From positions 3,233,001-3,297,000 of the forward strand of contig NC_009675.1 in NCBI RefSeq assembly GCF_000017505.1: a stretch of DNA of 64,000 bases, written 5' to 3'. Source of the stretch: Anaeromyxobacter sp. Fw109-5 (GTDB lineage: Bacteria > Myxococcota > Myxococcia > Myxococcales > Anaeromyxobacteraceae). The position numbers and the translations under genes were made by a program. Position 1 is the first letter of the stretch. Every line of letters starts with the position of its first letter. Below the pieces are notes generated by a model. That model did not search any database and was not told the origin of the DNA. It worked only from the letters and a program-made list of their open reading frames with translations. Shown in pieces: positions 59,308 to 64,000 of this stretch.

Positions 59308-59799
59308 ATGACGATGGAAGATCTGCTGCGCGACGAGGAGGCGGCCATCCTGGAGGAGGCCGCACTCGAGGCCGCGCAGCTCGAGCACTACCGCCGCGAC
59401 GGCGCCCAGGCGACGCGCGGACGGCTCGAGCTCCTCTACCGCCAGCTGGTGGACGCGGTGCTCGCACGCGATCTCAACGCGCTGCGCGCCCACGTCACCC
59501 GCCTGGCGCACGAGCGATTCGCGGCGGGGTTCGACCTCTCCGAGGTGCAGGCCGCGTTCTCGATCCTCGAGGACGCCATCTGGCGGAAGGCGCTGTCCCG
59601 GCTGCCGTCGGACGAGCGAGCCTGGGGCCTCAGCCTGGTCGGGACCGTCTTCGCGCAGGGCAGGAGCACGCTCGCGCGAACCTACGAGTCGCTCGCGCCA
59701 CGCGCACCGGCGCCGTGCGTCGATCTCGCGCCCCTGTTCTTCGGCGCGGACTCCGTGCGGACCTCGCGGTTCGTGGAGGAGCTGGTCTACCCGGTCTGA
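59308..59799 (+). CDS. RsbRD N-terminal-like sensory protein
   Basis: 163 residues, ATG at 59308 (a second ATG two codons later is possible). It is all-helical: MTMEDLLRDEEAAILEEAAL, ALEAAQLEHYRRDGAQATRG, then LAHERFAAGFDLSEVQAAFS and ILEDAIWRKALSRLPSDERA. This matches the RsbRD_N type, a globin-like domain of stressosome co-antagonists, but no STAS domain is attached. A stand-alone unit might serve as a partner-binding domain. It is divergent from the LysR gene, which may control it. Confidence 0.7.
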   Translation: MTMEDLLRDEEAAILEEAALEAAQLEHYRRDGAQATRGRLELLYRQLVDAVLARDLNALRAHVTRLAHERFAAGFDLSEVQAAFSILEDAIWRKALSRLPSDERAWGLSLVGTVFAQGRSTLARTYESLAPRAPAPCVDLAPLFFGADSVRTSRFVEELVYPV

Positions 59800-61067: not shown

Positions 61068-61120
61068 GGTACGCCACGGCGAGGCCCCGCGGGCCGCCGT
61101 TCCCTGAGCCGGGCTCGTGA

Positions 61121-61999
61121 TCAGTGGGCGTGCACCCCACTCCAGCGGGCCGCCTCGTGGCAGCCGGCGCACGCGCTCGTCACGGCGCCGAGGGATCGGG
61201 TGACCGCGGACCAGCGCCCCGCCGTCGCGGCGGCCTCGAGCTGGACCGCGCCCTCGCCGAGCAGCCCCGCCAGCTGCTCCACCGTCGCCGCCACCTCCGG
61301 CCCCGCGTGCTCACCGGCGTGCTCCGCGACGCGCCTCGGCCCCTCCGCCTCGAGCCAGCGCGCGACGCGCGCGATCTCCCCCGCCGCGCCCGCCACGCGC
61401 GCGTAGCCGCCGGCGGTGGGGCGCTCGACCAGCATCCGGCCGTAGGCCGCGCTGGCGTCGGCCCACGCGCCGCGGAGCCGCTCCATCGCGTCGTCGAGAT
61501 CCTCGGGCGGAGTGCTCCGGCGCGACAGCGTGGGCGCCAGCGCGCCGTGGGCCGCCGCGGTCACGGCCATGCCCGAGTGGAAGACCAGCACCTCCCCGCC
61601 GATCCAGCCCGTCCCGGCGAGGAGGACCGCGAGCAGGAGGGCGCACGCCGCCGTCCCGCGCCCCGCGATCGCGCCGCGGCGGAGGGCCCGGAGCCGAACG
61701 GCCGCGAGCGCGAGCAGGAGCACGGTGCCGGCGGCGCCCATCCCGAGGTGCAGCCATCGCCAGGTCCCGAGCCCTTCCGGCCACGGCAGGAGCGCGTTCG
61801 CGACCAGGCCCGCCCCTGCCGTCGCGACCGCGAAGACCGCCCCCACGCCGAGCGCGACGTCCCCCGCGAACGACCAGCGATCGGAGCGCCGGACCGCGGC
61901 GAGCCCGTACGCGAGGACGACCACCGGGAGGACGCCCAGCGTGACGTGCACGAGCGCGGGGTGCACCGTCGTCGCGCGGATGGCGCTGAACGGGTCCAC
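61121..61999 (-). CDS. DUF2231-like membrane protein with C-terminal haem-c motif
   Basis: 292 residues, GTG start. The N-terminal 145 residues hold four membrane helices: VHPALVHVTLGVLPVVVLAY, ALGVGAVFAVATAGAGLVAN, LHLGMGAAGTVLLLALAAVR and CALLLAVLLAGTGWIGGEVL. The first, with its His-Pro-x2-VH, is the DUF2231 start. The C-terminal 110 residues form a four-helix-like bundle ending with TSACAGCHEAARWSG, one CxxCH haem site, resembling cytochrome c'. The product could pass electrons between quinone and a periplasmic partner. It is 16 bases after the P460 gene and surely co-transcribed. Confidence 0.8.
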   Translation of the reverse strand: MDPFSAIRATTVHPALVHVTLGVLPVVVLAYGLAAVRRSDRWSFAGDVALGVGAVFAVATAGAGLVANALLPWPEGLGTWRWLHLGMGAAGTVLLLALAAVRLRALRRGAIAGRGTAACALLLAVLLAGTGWIGGEVLVFHSGMAVTAAAHGALAPTLSRRSTPPEDLDDAMERLRGAWADASAAYGRMLVERPTAGGYARVAGAAGEIARVARWLEAEGPRRVAEHAGEHAGPEVAATVEQLAGLLGEGAVQLEAAATAGRWSAVTRSLGAVTSACAGCHEAARWSGVHAH

Positions 62000-62015
62000 G
62001 ACGTCCCGGCTCCGG

Positions 62016-62534
62016 TCACTTCGAGAAGACGAGGTCGTTCGGGGCGGCGGTGTGGCAGCCGACGCAGCCCTTCACATCCGGCCCCGCGACGGGCTTGCCG
62101 TCCCGCGTGAAGACCTTCCAGTCCGGCGTCGCGCGGATCCAGAACCAGGAGCCGTTGCGCTTCGCCATGACGGTGAGCGACGCCGCGTCGGCGTCGGGCT
62201 GGGGGCGGTTCTCCTTCACGATGACGCTGCCCTCCGGGTACTGCCCGCCCGCCGTCGGCCCCTTCGCCGCCGCCTCGTTGCGCCAGGCCACGACGTAGGT
62301 CCCCCCGTGGCCCTTCGAGAGCACGGGCCTGGCGTACTGCGGGAACGTGCTCCAGGATCGATAGCCCTTCGCCTCCTCGAGGATCGCCCGCGCCTCACCG
62401 GCCGGCGCGACGCCCTTCTGCTCCTCCCCTTTGCCGTGCCCGGGCTGCGCTTGCGCGGCCGACTGCGCCAGCACGCCCACCGCGGCGACGCTCGCGACGA
62501 GCGCCGCCAGGGCGACACCGTGGACTCCCTTCAT
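62016..62534 (-). CDS. Cytochrome P460 family protein
   Basis: 172 residues, ATG behind CTGGACGGAGGAGCCACG. The signal peptide MKGVHGVALAALVASVAAVG ends near AQAQPG. The mature domain reads EEAKGYRSWSTFPQYARPVL, HGGTYVVAWRNEAAAKGPTA and GQYPEGSVIVKENR. The haem site near the C-terminus is KGCVGCHTAAPNDLVFSK. P460 cytochromes oxidise hydroxylamine or nitric oxide in ammonia oxidisers; related cytochrome c'-beta proteins bind NO. The crosslinking lysine of true P460 cannot be fixed without alignment. First gene of the two-gene redox transcript. Confidence 0.9.
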   Translation of the reverse strand: MKGVHGVALAALVASVAAVGVLAQSAAQAQPGHGKGEEQKGVAPAGEARAILEEAKGYRSWSTFPQYARPVLSKGHGGTYVVAWRNEAAAKGPTAGGQYPEGSVIVKENRPQPDADAASLTVMAKRNGSWFWIRATPDWKVFTRDGKPVAGPDVKGCVGCHTAAPNDLVFSK

Positions 62535-62878
62535 CGTGGCTCCTCCGTCCAGGCGCTCCACCTGCAGTGTCGAGTGCACTAGGCCGGGCGCCGCGCCGAG
62601 GACACGGCGCGGATGGGCCGTCGCGACGGGGCCAGGACATCGGTGAGCGCGCGACCACGCGCCAGGCAGGATCCCCCAGGGACGAGCGTCCGCCCGGGAG
62701 AAGGAGAGTCGCTGCGAGGGCGGGAGCACGTCCGCTTCTCCGCCCGTGAAGCGGCTGCTGCCGCCCCCGGTCCCGACGCGGCGCGCCAGGACGCGCACTT
62801 ATGAGACTTGACGCCGGTCAAGCGCAGCAACACGGAGTGAAACGAACGCGCAGACCATCGCCAAGGAGGCATCGACTC
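62535..62878. other. Divergent control region of the redox cluster
   Basis: 344 bases between the cytochrome P460 and cupredoxin starts. Apart from the FNR/CRP-like palindrome at 62807-62822, no gene or promoter box is supported. An Arg-rich open frame crosses the area and is not a gene. Confidence 0.45.
62807..62822 (+). promoter_or_regulatory. FNR/CRP-family operator
   Basis: CTTGAC-GCCG-GTCAAG is a perfect inverted repeat with a four-base spacer. It contains TTGAC-N4-GTCAA, the form recognised by FNR, FixK and DNR-type regulators (core TTGA-N6-TCAA). Its centre is 64 bases before the cupredoxin ATG, a fitting distance for class II activation. Control by oxygen, nitrate or NO is inferred. 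Confidence 0.6.
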
Positions 62879-63598
62879 ATGCCACGCCAGCGACTCATCC
62901 CGAGCTCGATCCTCGCCGTTCTCGTCACGGCCGCTCTCCCCTCCTCCGTCCTCGCCTACGAGGTCGCGCCGGTCGCGGACGGCGGGACCATCAGCGGGAA
63001 GGTCACGTTCAGCGGGCCCGTCCCGACGAAGAAGATCATCCCGACCAAGGACAAGGAGGTCTGCGGCGACATCCGCGAGGAGCCGGAGATCGTCGTCGGC
63101 GCGGACAAGGGCGTCCTCGACGCGGTCGTGTACCTGAAGTCCGTCGAGAAGGGGAAGGCGTTCCAGAAGCCCGCCCAGAAGCCGGAGATCGTGAACAAGG
63201 GGTGCCGCTTCGTCCCCAACGTCCAGGCGTTCCCGGTCGGGACGGTCGTCATCGTCAACTCCGACCCGGTCATGCACAACACCCACGGCTTCCACGACAA
63301 GGCGACCGTCTTCAACGTCGCGCTGCCGATGAAGGGGCAGCGCATCGAGCGGCCGCTCAAGAAGCCGGGCATCACGCGCGTGGAGTGCGACGCGCACGGC
63401 TGGATGCTCGCGTGGATCTACGTCGCGGACAATCCGTACTACGCCGTCACGCAGAAGGACGGCGCGTTCAGCATCACCGACGTGCCGCCGGGGAACTACA
63501 CGCTCGTCGCCTGGCACGCGTTCACGGGCCCGACCGAGGTGGCGGTCACCGTGAAGCCGAAGGAGGCGGCGAAGGTCCCCGTCGAGCTGAAGAAGTAG
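62879..63598 (+). CDS. Secreted cupredoxin-like / carboxypeptidase-regulatory-like protein
   Basis: 239 residues, ATG at 62879 behind CCAAGGAGGCATCGACTC. The signal peptide SSILAVLVTAALPSSVLAYE is cleaved before YEV. The domain starts with GGTISGKVTFSGPVPTKKII and has one Cys in DKEVCGDIREEPE. The plastocyanin-like site is VIVNSDPVMHNTHGFHD followed by ITRVECDAHGWMLAWIYVAD: two His, a Cys, a further His and a Met, a possible type-1 copper set. The C-terminal end DGAFSITDVPPGNYTLVAWH is a regulatory-like beta fold. It is the first gene of a probable operon with a TAT-exported phosphoesterase, and lies divergent from haem proteins. Confidence 0.85.
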   Translation: MPRQRLIPSSILAVLVTAALPSSVLAYEVAPVADGGTISGKVTFSGPVPTKKIIPTKDKEVCGDIREEPEIVVGADKGVLDAVVYLKSVEKGKAFQKPAQKPEIVNKGCRFVPNVQAFPVGTVVIVNSDPVMHNTHGFHDKATVFNVALPMKGQRIERPLKKPGITRVECDAHGWMLAWIYVADNPYYAVTQKDGAFSITDVPPGNYTLVAWHAFTGPTEVAVTVKPKEAAKVPVELKK

Positions 63599-63636
63599 TC
63601 CCGCCGTTCGGGATCGAAGAGTCGGAGGAGACGCCG

Positions 63637-64000
63637 ATGGAACACAATCAGAGAGAGCGAAGCGAGCTGCACGAAGTGCTGCAAGGCTCCGGCGAGCGCC
63701 CCGACCGTTCGCTGGTCATCACCCGCCGCACCTTCCTCCACAGGTCGCTGCTGACCGGGACGGCGGGCGCGGCCGCCTACGGTTGGTTCCCGCTGATCAA
63801 CACGCTCGACCTGGCCCTCGGTGCGCAGCAGGGGTTCAAGTTCGCCTGGATCTCCGACACGCACCTGTATCCCAAGGACGTCAACACGCGCTTCGTCGAC
63901 AAGGCGGTGCGCGCGACCAAGGAGGTCATCGCGATGAGGCCCGCCGCGGACTTCCTCATGTTCGGCGGCGACCTCGCCCAGCTCGGCGATCCCGTGGAGC
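63637..64000 (+). CDS. TAT-exported metallophosphoesterase (N-terminal part)
   Basis: Starts at ATG 63637 behind GTCGGAGGAGACGCCG and runs off the right edge; 121 residues are visible. A twin-arginine signal, ITRRTFLHRSLLTGTAGAAA, sits about 30 residues in. The calcineurin-type metal site begins with FAWISDTHLYPKD (D-x-H) and continues with FLMFGGDLAQLGDP (GD). The full enzyme would be expected to need about 300 residues. TAT export implies a folded metalloprotein, acting in the periplasm on phosphoester substrates. It is 38 bases downstream of the cupredoxin-like gene and almost certainly in the same operon. Confidence 0.9.
   Translation, partial: MEHNQRERSELHEVLQGSGERPDRSLVITRRTFLHRSLLTGTAGAAAYGWFPLINTLDLALGAQQGFKFAWISDTHLYPKDVNTRFVDKAVRATKEVIAMRPAADFLMFGGDLAQLGDPVE

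Follow-up and report, generated by a model that had tools for sequence, protein, structure and literature searches.

The 64 kb window analysed in this study (the whole stretch G000:C1:3233001-3297000) comes from Anaeromyxobacter sp. Fw109-5, whose genome (G000) is a single contig of 5.28 Mb with a GC content of ~73%. The window ends in a divergent redox locus. Genes for a cytochrome P460-family protein and a DUF2231-haem protein face genes for a cupredoxin-like protein and a metallophosphoesterase exported by the twin-arginine translocation (TAT) pathway. An earlier note on this DNA had described this arrangement, and all of its elements were found. The plus operon runs past the window end with three further genes, which encode a cytochrome c, a SoxYZ fusion and a rhodanese (Table 1). 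We put the chance at about even that this operon encodes a Sox-like module that handles sulfur in the periplasm without SoxB and is coupled to a haem-copper oxygen reductase. The gene set is widespread and apparently undescribed.

Table 1. Features of the locus; genes past the window end are given in window numbering.
Feature	Position	Strand	Remark
DUF2231 membrane domain with cytochrome c′-like CAGCH haem domain	61121-61999	-	P460 partner gene
Cytochrome P460-family mono-haem protein, CVGCH	62016-62534	-	
FNR/FixK-type palindrome TTGACGCCGGTCAA	62808-62821		centre 62814.5
Shine-Dalgarno AAGGAGG of the cupredoxin gene	62863-62869	+	from sequence
Cupredoxin-like exported protein	62879-63598	+	first core-operon gene; ATG at 62879
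TAT-exported metallophosphoesterase	63637 to ~64785	+	crosses window end at 64000
SoxA/TsdA-like mono-haem cytochrome c	64819-65262	+	outside window
Superoxide reductase-like SoxYZ fusion with TAT signal	65285-66127	+	outside window
Rhodanese	66131-66685	+	outside window
caa3 oxidase cluster	67338-72644	-	outside window
SCO	72775-73428		outside window
Island, left part	61081-64000		part in window; whole ~12.4 kb, to about 73449

A phosphoesterase profile retrieved 177 relatives, of which 80 were retained. The gene order cupredoxin, TAT phosphoesterase, SoxA-like cytochrome was nearly constant (78/80, 79/80 and 76/80 loci), so the core is kept in about 80 loci. It was found in Rokubacteria, Methylomirabilota, Binatia, Tectomicrobia, Nitrospirae and alpha-, beta- and gammaproteobacteria. 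The following tallies of oxidases and sulfur partners refer to the 66 long loci (≥12 kb). A haem-copper oxidase was present in 63 of them. The focal strain has a caa3 oxidase; most relatives have a cbb3 variant of two genes, which encode CcoN and a CcoO with extra cytochrome c domains attached (scored ccoN/FixO-like). A Tyr six residues before the CuB HH, which is typical of C-family O2 reductases, was found in subunit I in 70/75 open reading frames (ORFs), the other five being ORFs of ~187 aa. Since this Tyr is retained, identification of the oxidase as a nitric oxide (NO) reductase was rejected.

Sulfur partners accompanied the core in 39/66 long loci. They were a superoxide reductase (SOR)-like SoxYZ fusion, separate SoxY and SoxZ, a canonical SoxYZ fusion, flavocytochrome c sulfide dehydrogenase (FCSD; PF21706, 155 bits) or rhodanese. 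A rhodanese gene lies beside the core in the focal strain, in G023 and G029 and at locus L134. On the symbiotic megaplasmid pSymA of Sinorhizobium meliloti (L055, CP130049.1), the core operon stands with FCSD, separate SoxY and SoxZ, groEL and the cbb3 variant. The phosphoesterase was also seen in about 40 rhizobial plasmid records. Sulfur carriers, FCSD, the SoxA/TsdA-like cytochrome and O2-reducing oxidases as partners point to sulfur and to electron transfer of an aerobic or microaerobic kind, not to NO.

The SoxYZ fusion matched PF13501 (54.8 bits) and PF08770 (45.5 bits) and has the arm motif GGCAG (C152). It also matched PF01880 with 43 bits (cut-off 22.2) and has an SOR-type ligand set consisting of H51, H75, H81 and H134 together with C131. 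Fe(His)4(Cys) provides the ligands of SOR centre II, and TAT-exported SORs are a class described in SORGOdb (PMC3116461). Among 19 sequences from 18 distinct loci, H75, C131 and the arm Cys were present in 19/19, H81 in 18/19, H134 in 17/19 and H51 in 14/19; all five ligands were present in 12/19. The score against TIGR04557 was 80.7 bits, below the cut-off of 140. None of the canonical SoxY and true TIGR04557 members aligned had His or Cys at the positions of H75, H81, C131 and H134, so the combination of SOR ligands and an arm Cys is absent from those proteins.

A profile of 15 SoxYZ-fusion sequences matched SOR 2amu (7.6e-7), SoxZ (8e-6 and 1.2e-5) and SoxY 4uwq_B (3.4e-4), and SOR structures were the best PDB matches for residues 39-154. 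The AlphaFold2 model of a Rokubacterial homologue had a predicted local distance difference test score (pLDDT) of 81 and a predicted template modelling score of 0.77. In this model, residues 173-287 were superposed on Paracoccus SoxZ (2ox5) with a VIA Z of 10 and a root-mean-square deviation (rmsd) of 1.6 over 101 aligned residues. The region of about 35-155 matched some fourteen SOR entries with Z 7.5-8.9, above unrelated immunoglobulin-like rows, with neelaredoxin at Z 8.9 (rmsd 4.0, 116 aligned). The family thus comprises carriers of the SoxY type in which a putative metal site like that of SOR was kept or regained.

The profile of the core cytochrome matched SoxA 1h31 (5e-9) and TsdA 4wq7 (2e-6). 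The pattern CAMCH-28-NWC was present in 81/81 cytochromes, and its invariant Cys (C109 in the focal protein) aligns with the catalytic-haem Cys of TsdA and with a SoxA Cys. In TsdA this residue (Cys123, precursor numbering) bears the thiosulfonate intermediate (PMC4423706). The cupredoxin has a type-1 Cu motif (H133, C170-x2-H173-x2-M176) that is invariant in three orthologues, ends in a carboxypeptidase-regulatory-like domain and matched the blue-copper protein 5FC9 in the PDB (E 1.7e-5). The metallophosphoesterase matched PF00149 (46 bits).

In the mechanism that we propose, sulfur in reduced form, as sulfide, persulfide or thiosulfate, would be loaded on the swinging-arm C152 of the TAT-exported SoxYZ fusion, in which the SoxY half would be neelaredoxin-like and carry a putative Fe(His)3-4(Cys) site. 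The SoxA/TsdA-family cytochrome, with its haem and C109, would receive the electrons, and the cupredoxin would pass them to the adjoining terminal oxidase. The rhodanese would transfer sulfane sulfur. The metallophosphoesterase may perform a hydrolytic step, the role of SoxB in Sox.

Several observations weigh against a sulfur-handling module. SoxB was not detected in the focal genome (best TIGR04486 score 20.4 bits, cut-off 550), and no score reached this cut-off in G023, G029 or the genomes that contain L069 and L129. The PDB relatives of the metallophosphoesterase are GpdQ-type phosphodiesterases, and with no SoxB in the genome the role given to this enzyme is a guess. Four positions ahead of the Cys, SoxA and TsdA share an invariant Arg, where the focal cytochrome has M105; SoxA 1h31 also has a Met there in its N-terminal haem domain. 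With M105 instead of Arg, catalysis is not established, and a cysteine-ligated electron-transfer haem is equally possible. No sulfur gene lay within about 8 kb of the core in 27/66 long loci. In Myxococcaceae (L043, L045, L050 and others), the phosphoesterase-cytochrome pair is accompanied by a MauG/cytochrome-c-peroxidase-like dihaem protein, not by SoxYZ and an oxidase. Anaeromyxobacter is known mostly for anaerobic respiration.

A further-reaching proposal is put forward only tentatively. The operon would represent a sulfur-oxidation system of its own, periplasmic and independent of SoxB. Its carrier would stand functionally between SOR and SoxY, with a non-haem Fe(His)4(Cys) site beside a persulfide-carrying arm Cys in a single polypeptide. 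The system would be wired through a cysteine-ligated cytochrome and the cupredoxin to a dedicated oxidase and have spread laterally over many phyla, its core reaching rhizobial symbiotic plasmids as well.

In the focal strain, the module arrived on an island of ~12.4 kb together with the P460, DUF2231/cytochrome c′ and oxidase genes. Homology to the congeners ends at 61080 (G035) or 61039 (G038) and restarts at 75752 (G035) or 73449 (G038); these breaks delimit a strain-specific island (61.08-73.45 kb) among the genomes compared. The phosphoesterase, P460 and DUF2231 genes were all absent from 8/8 congeners, one of which is a genome only 66% complete. The GC content of the island is 71.5%, compared with 73.0/72.6% in the flanks, which is weak evidence taken alone. 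In the conserved left flank, positions 59308-59799 encode a 163-aa helical protein with no Pfam match, divergent from a LysR gene.

The earlier note had also placed the locus under an FNR-type palindrome. The sequence TTGACGCCGGTCAA is an exact TTGAC-N4-GTCAA whose midpoint falls 64.5 nt ahead of the cupredoxin ATG, in line with the 64 bases given in the note. It lies ~275 nt from the P460 start and is therefore best argued as belonging to the plus operon. It was the sole match in the window at up to one mismatch, where 0.37 were expected and 31/100 shuffles had at least one match. Genome-wide, the exact pattern occurred at 5 sites and TTGAY-N4-RTCAA at 11, against 1 each for the reversed controls. 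The motif class is enriched, yet it is only moderately unlikely that a single site would turn up by chance in a window of 64 kb.

Six of the 11 TTGAY-N4-RTCAA sites (2039831, 2079186, 2790661, 3610764, 4206609 and the focal one) precede c-type cytochrome or redox operons. The site at 2790661 (L003) is a second exact TTGACGCCGGTCAA, likewise with the core GCCG, and stands directly 5′ of an operon for a multihaem cytochrome, an FeS protein, an NrfD-like protein and a cytochrome c. In congeners G035 and G038, a similar box accompanies the cytochrome gene that follows 4206609, and further congener boxes stand before genes for a hydrogenase small subunit and for TAT molybdo-enzymes. An exact box at 173898 (L004, L142) lies between TetR and DNA polymerase IV genes and is kept in three congeners (L141, L144, L154), so the conserved boxes are not all at redox genes.

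The genome has a regulator to match. A CRP/FNR protein (2825537-2826247; PF00027 and PF13545) has an N-terminal CNAC...C cluster and the recognition helix ETLSR, and occurs in 7/8 congeners with 91-98% identity, the one without it being the 66% complete genome. In FNR and FixK regulators, the ETLSR helix recognises TTGA half-sites. Such a regulator together with boxes at cytochrome operons makes an FNR-type regulon credible in the genus. The palindrome was found in 0/83 upstream regions of orthologous cupredoxin genes, an outcome that the earlier note had itself named as counting against its reading. It was sought without success in G023, G029, S. meliloti, Phyllobacterium and 80 further loci, and a FixK box sought at the S. 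meliloti pSymA orthologue was not found. The box was thus not inherited with the module across lineages and would be either a regulatory element added locally or a site that arose by chance. Of FNR-type control as the earlier note saw it, the regulator and the boxes before cytochrome operons held up, and conservation of the focal box did not.

A chance match, with the operon not under FNR-type regulation, is somewhat unlikely and would be independent of what the operon does. The absence of the box from all orthologous loci, the frequency of matches in shuffled sequence and the position of some exact genome sites at unrelated genes, for example beside glycosyltransferases, speak for it. It is opposed by the enrichment over the reversed control, by the six sites 5′ of cytochrome or redox genes, by the two congener counterparts of the 4206609 box and by the spacing of ~64 nt to the start codon, which is usual for an operator. 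It is plausible that the box is real, and it would probably make the operon oxygen- or redox-responsive.

Two other readings of the operon itself were weighed against sulfur handling. In the first, the neelaredoxin-like half would be a working periplasmic SOR that guards the oxidase against oxidative stress, with the cytochrome c and cupredoxin as donors and the SoxZ half as a scaffold. The complete Fe(His)4(Cys) set in the focal protein, its PF01880 score, the SOR structures at the top of the PDB matches, the TAT-SORs already described (PMC3116461) and the MauG/peroxidase-like cytochrome of the Myxococcaceae clusters are consistent with it. However, H51 is missing in 5/19, H81 in 1/19 and H134 in 2/19 of the homologues, and the NCBIfam SOR models gave 32 bits against a cut-off of 61.9. 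All 19 homologues keep the SoxY-type arm Cys, though an SOR has no need of one, and in locus L122 the slot is filled by a canonical SoxYZ fusion without these ligands. We consider an SOR function improbable.

In the second, the operon would help in the metallation or assembly of the haem-copper oxidase next to it, and its Sox-like parts would be redox chaperones. A cupredoxin with a type-1 Cu motif, a copper ATPase among the neighbours, and the presence of the oxidase in 63, SCO in 30 and TauE in 38 of the long loci fit such a role. The cysteine-bearing SoxA/TsdA-like cytochrome, FCSD and rhodanese would be left unexplained, and the oxidase class varies between caa3 and the cbb3 variant while the core is constant. 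A role in oxidase biogenesis is thus rated as improbable too, marginally more so.

For this cluster, the earlier note had called a response to NO or hydroxylamine, or anaerobic electron transfer, plausible. The P460 protein matched PF16694 (38.9 bits, cut-off 27). Its DUF2231 partner matched PF09990 (37.7 bits, cut-off 26.4) and scored 21.7 bits with PF01322, under the cut-off of 26.5. A single-sequence PDB search with the P460 protein gave irrelevant matches only, whereas profile searches worked; a structure model (four sequences, pLDDT 63) was too weak and was not used. In alignments whose gap placement is slightly ambiguous, K107 (motif GSVIVK) stands at the haem cross-link position, which is Lys70/78/106 in P460s and Phe61 in McCP-beta (PMC11928373 Table 2). 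T121 is at the distal-carboxylate position (Gly82/Glu96) and H76 at the capping position. Hydroxylamine oxidation needs the distal carboxylate (Glu96/Asp102), and a cross-linked but inactive P460 has Ala at this site (PMC11928373 Table 2). Since Thr121 replaces the carboxylate, oxidation of hydroxylamine by the focal protein is unlikely, and the protein may bind NO.

A P460/c′-beta-like gene directly follows the core cytochrome in four other loci (L071, L103, L105, L120), and its cross-link position is occupied by Met or Thr. A P460 protein near the core is therefore recurrent but rare. At L169 (G102:C46), a decayed adjacent P460-DUF2231/cytochrome c′ pair was found with both frames truncated, so the pair is not confined to the focal strain and is undergoing loss.

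That P460, DUF2231/cytochrome c′ and an FNR-type box make up an NO-related anaerobic operon is very improbable: the cross-link Lys of the P460-family protein, the P460/c′-beta-like genes at four other loci and an FNR-type regulator in the genome are offset by a residue at the carboxylate site as in P460s that do not oxidise hydroxylamine (PMC11928373 Table 2), by oxidases of the O2 type and not of the NO reductase type, by the missing box in orthologous regions and by the lack of a recognisable NO, nitrite or nitrate reductase gene beside any of the 11 box sites, which were inspected by eye without seeking those genes individually. NO or hydroxylamine as the main function was rejected on the P460 residues, the box neighbours and the partner genes, and the interpretation of the earlier note as a whole is partly supported.

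The same note had called the combination of genes unfamiliar, which was fair: the open-access literature searched, outside which many subscription journals lie, held no description of it, which does not prove that none exists. It also held nothing relevant on SoxY with superoxide reductase, SoxY with desulfoferrodoxin or SoxYZ with metallophosphoesterase. If the sulfur-handling reading is true, soil, sediment, symbiotic and uncultured lineages (Rokubacteria, Methylomirabilota, Entotheonella, rhizobia) would have in this conserved module an unrecognised way to pass electrons from sulfur to O2 respiration without SoxB. In that case, the SOR-like SoxYZ fusion would also show a possible origin of the Sox carrier fold, with testable iron-sulfur chemistry. 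The analysis also corrects a tempting NO/hydroxylamine reading built on a single P460 gene and a single palindrome.

The locus was compared with five known systems. The focal P460 protein resembles cytochrome P460/cytochrome c′-beta in its Pfam family, its CxxCH and its cross-link Lys; it differs in its residues at the distal-carboxylate (Thr) and capping (His) positions, and in being divergent from a sulfur-type operon. FNR, FixK and DNR regulons likewise combine TTGAY-N4-RTCAA boxes 5′ of cytochrome operons with an ETLSR-type regulator, whereas the focal box is not conserved at orthologous loci. The quinoprotein-dehydrogenase-associated SoxYZ-like carrier of TIGR04557 is also an exported SoxY-SoxZ fusion with a GGC arm, but the true members examined (L178-L180) have no His/Cys ligands and are located outside such operons. 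Neelaredoxin and SOR, including TAT-SOR (PMC3116461), share the fold and ligand set of focal residues 39-154; the focal protein is fused via a cysteine arm to SoxZ, and some homologues are without one or two ligands.

The Sox system (SoxAX-SoxYZ-SoxB-SoxCD) shares with the operon a carrier with a swinging-arm Cys, a SoxZ domain, a SoxA-family cysteine-bearing cytochrome and a metallophosphoesterase. Unlike Sox, the focal genome has no SoxB, and no SoxX was recognised in the operon (SoxX and SoxCD were not searched genome-wide). The focal phosphoesterase belongs to another, GpdQ/CpdA-like family. SoxY and SoxZ are fused, the SoxY half retains the SOR-like ligand set, and the operon is linked to a terminal oxidase.

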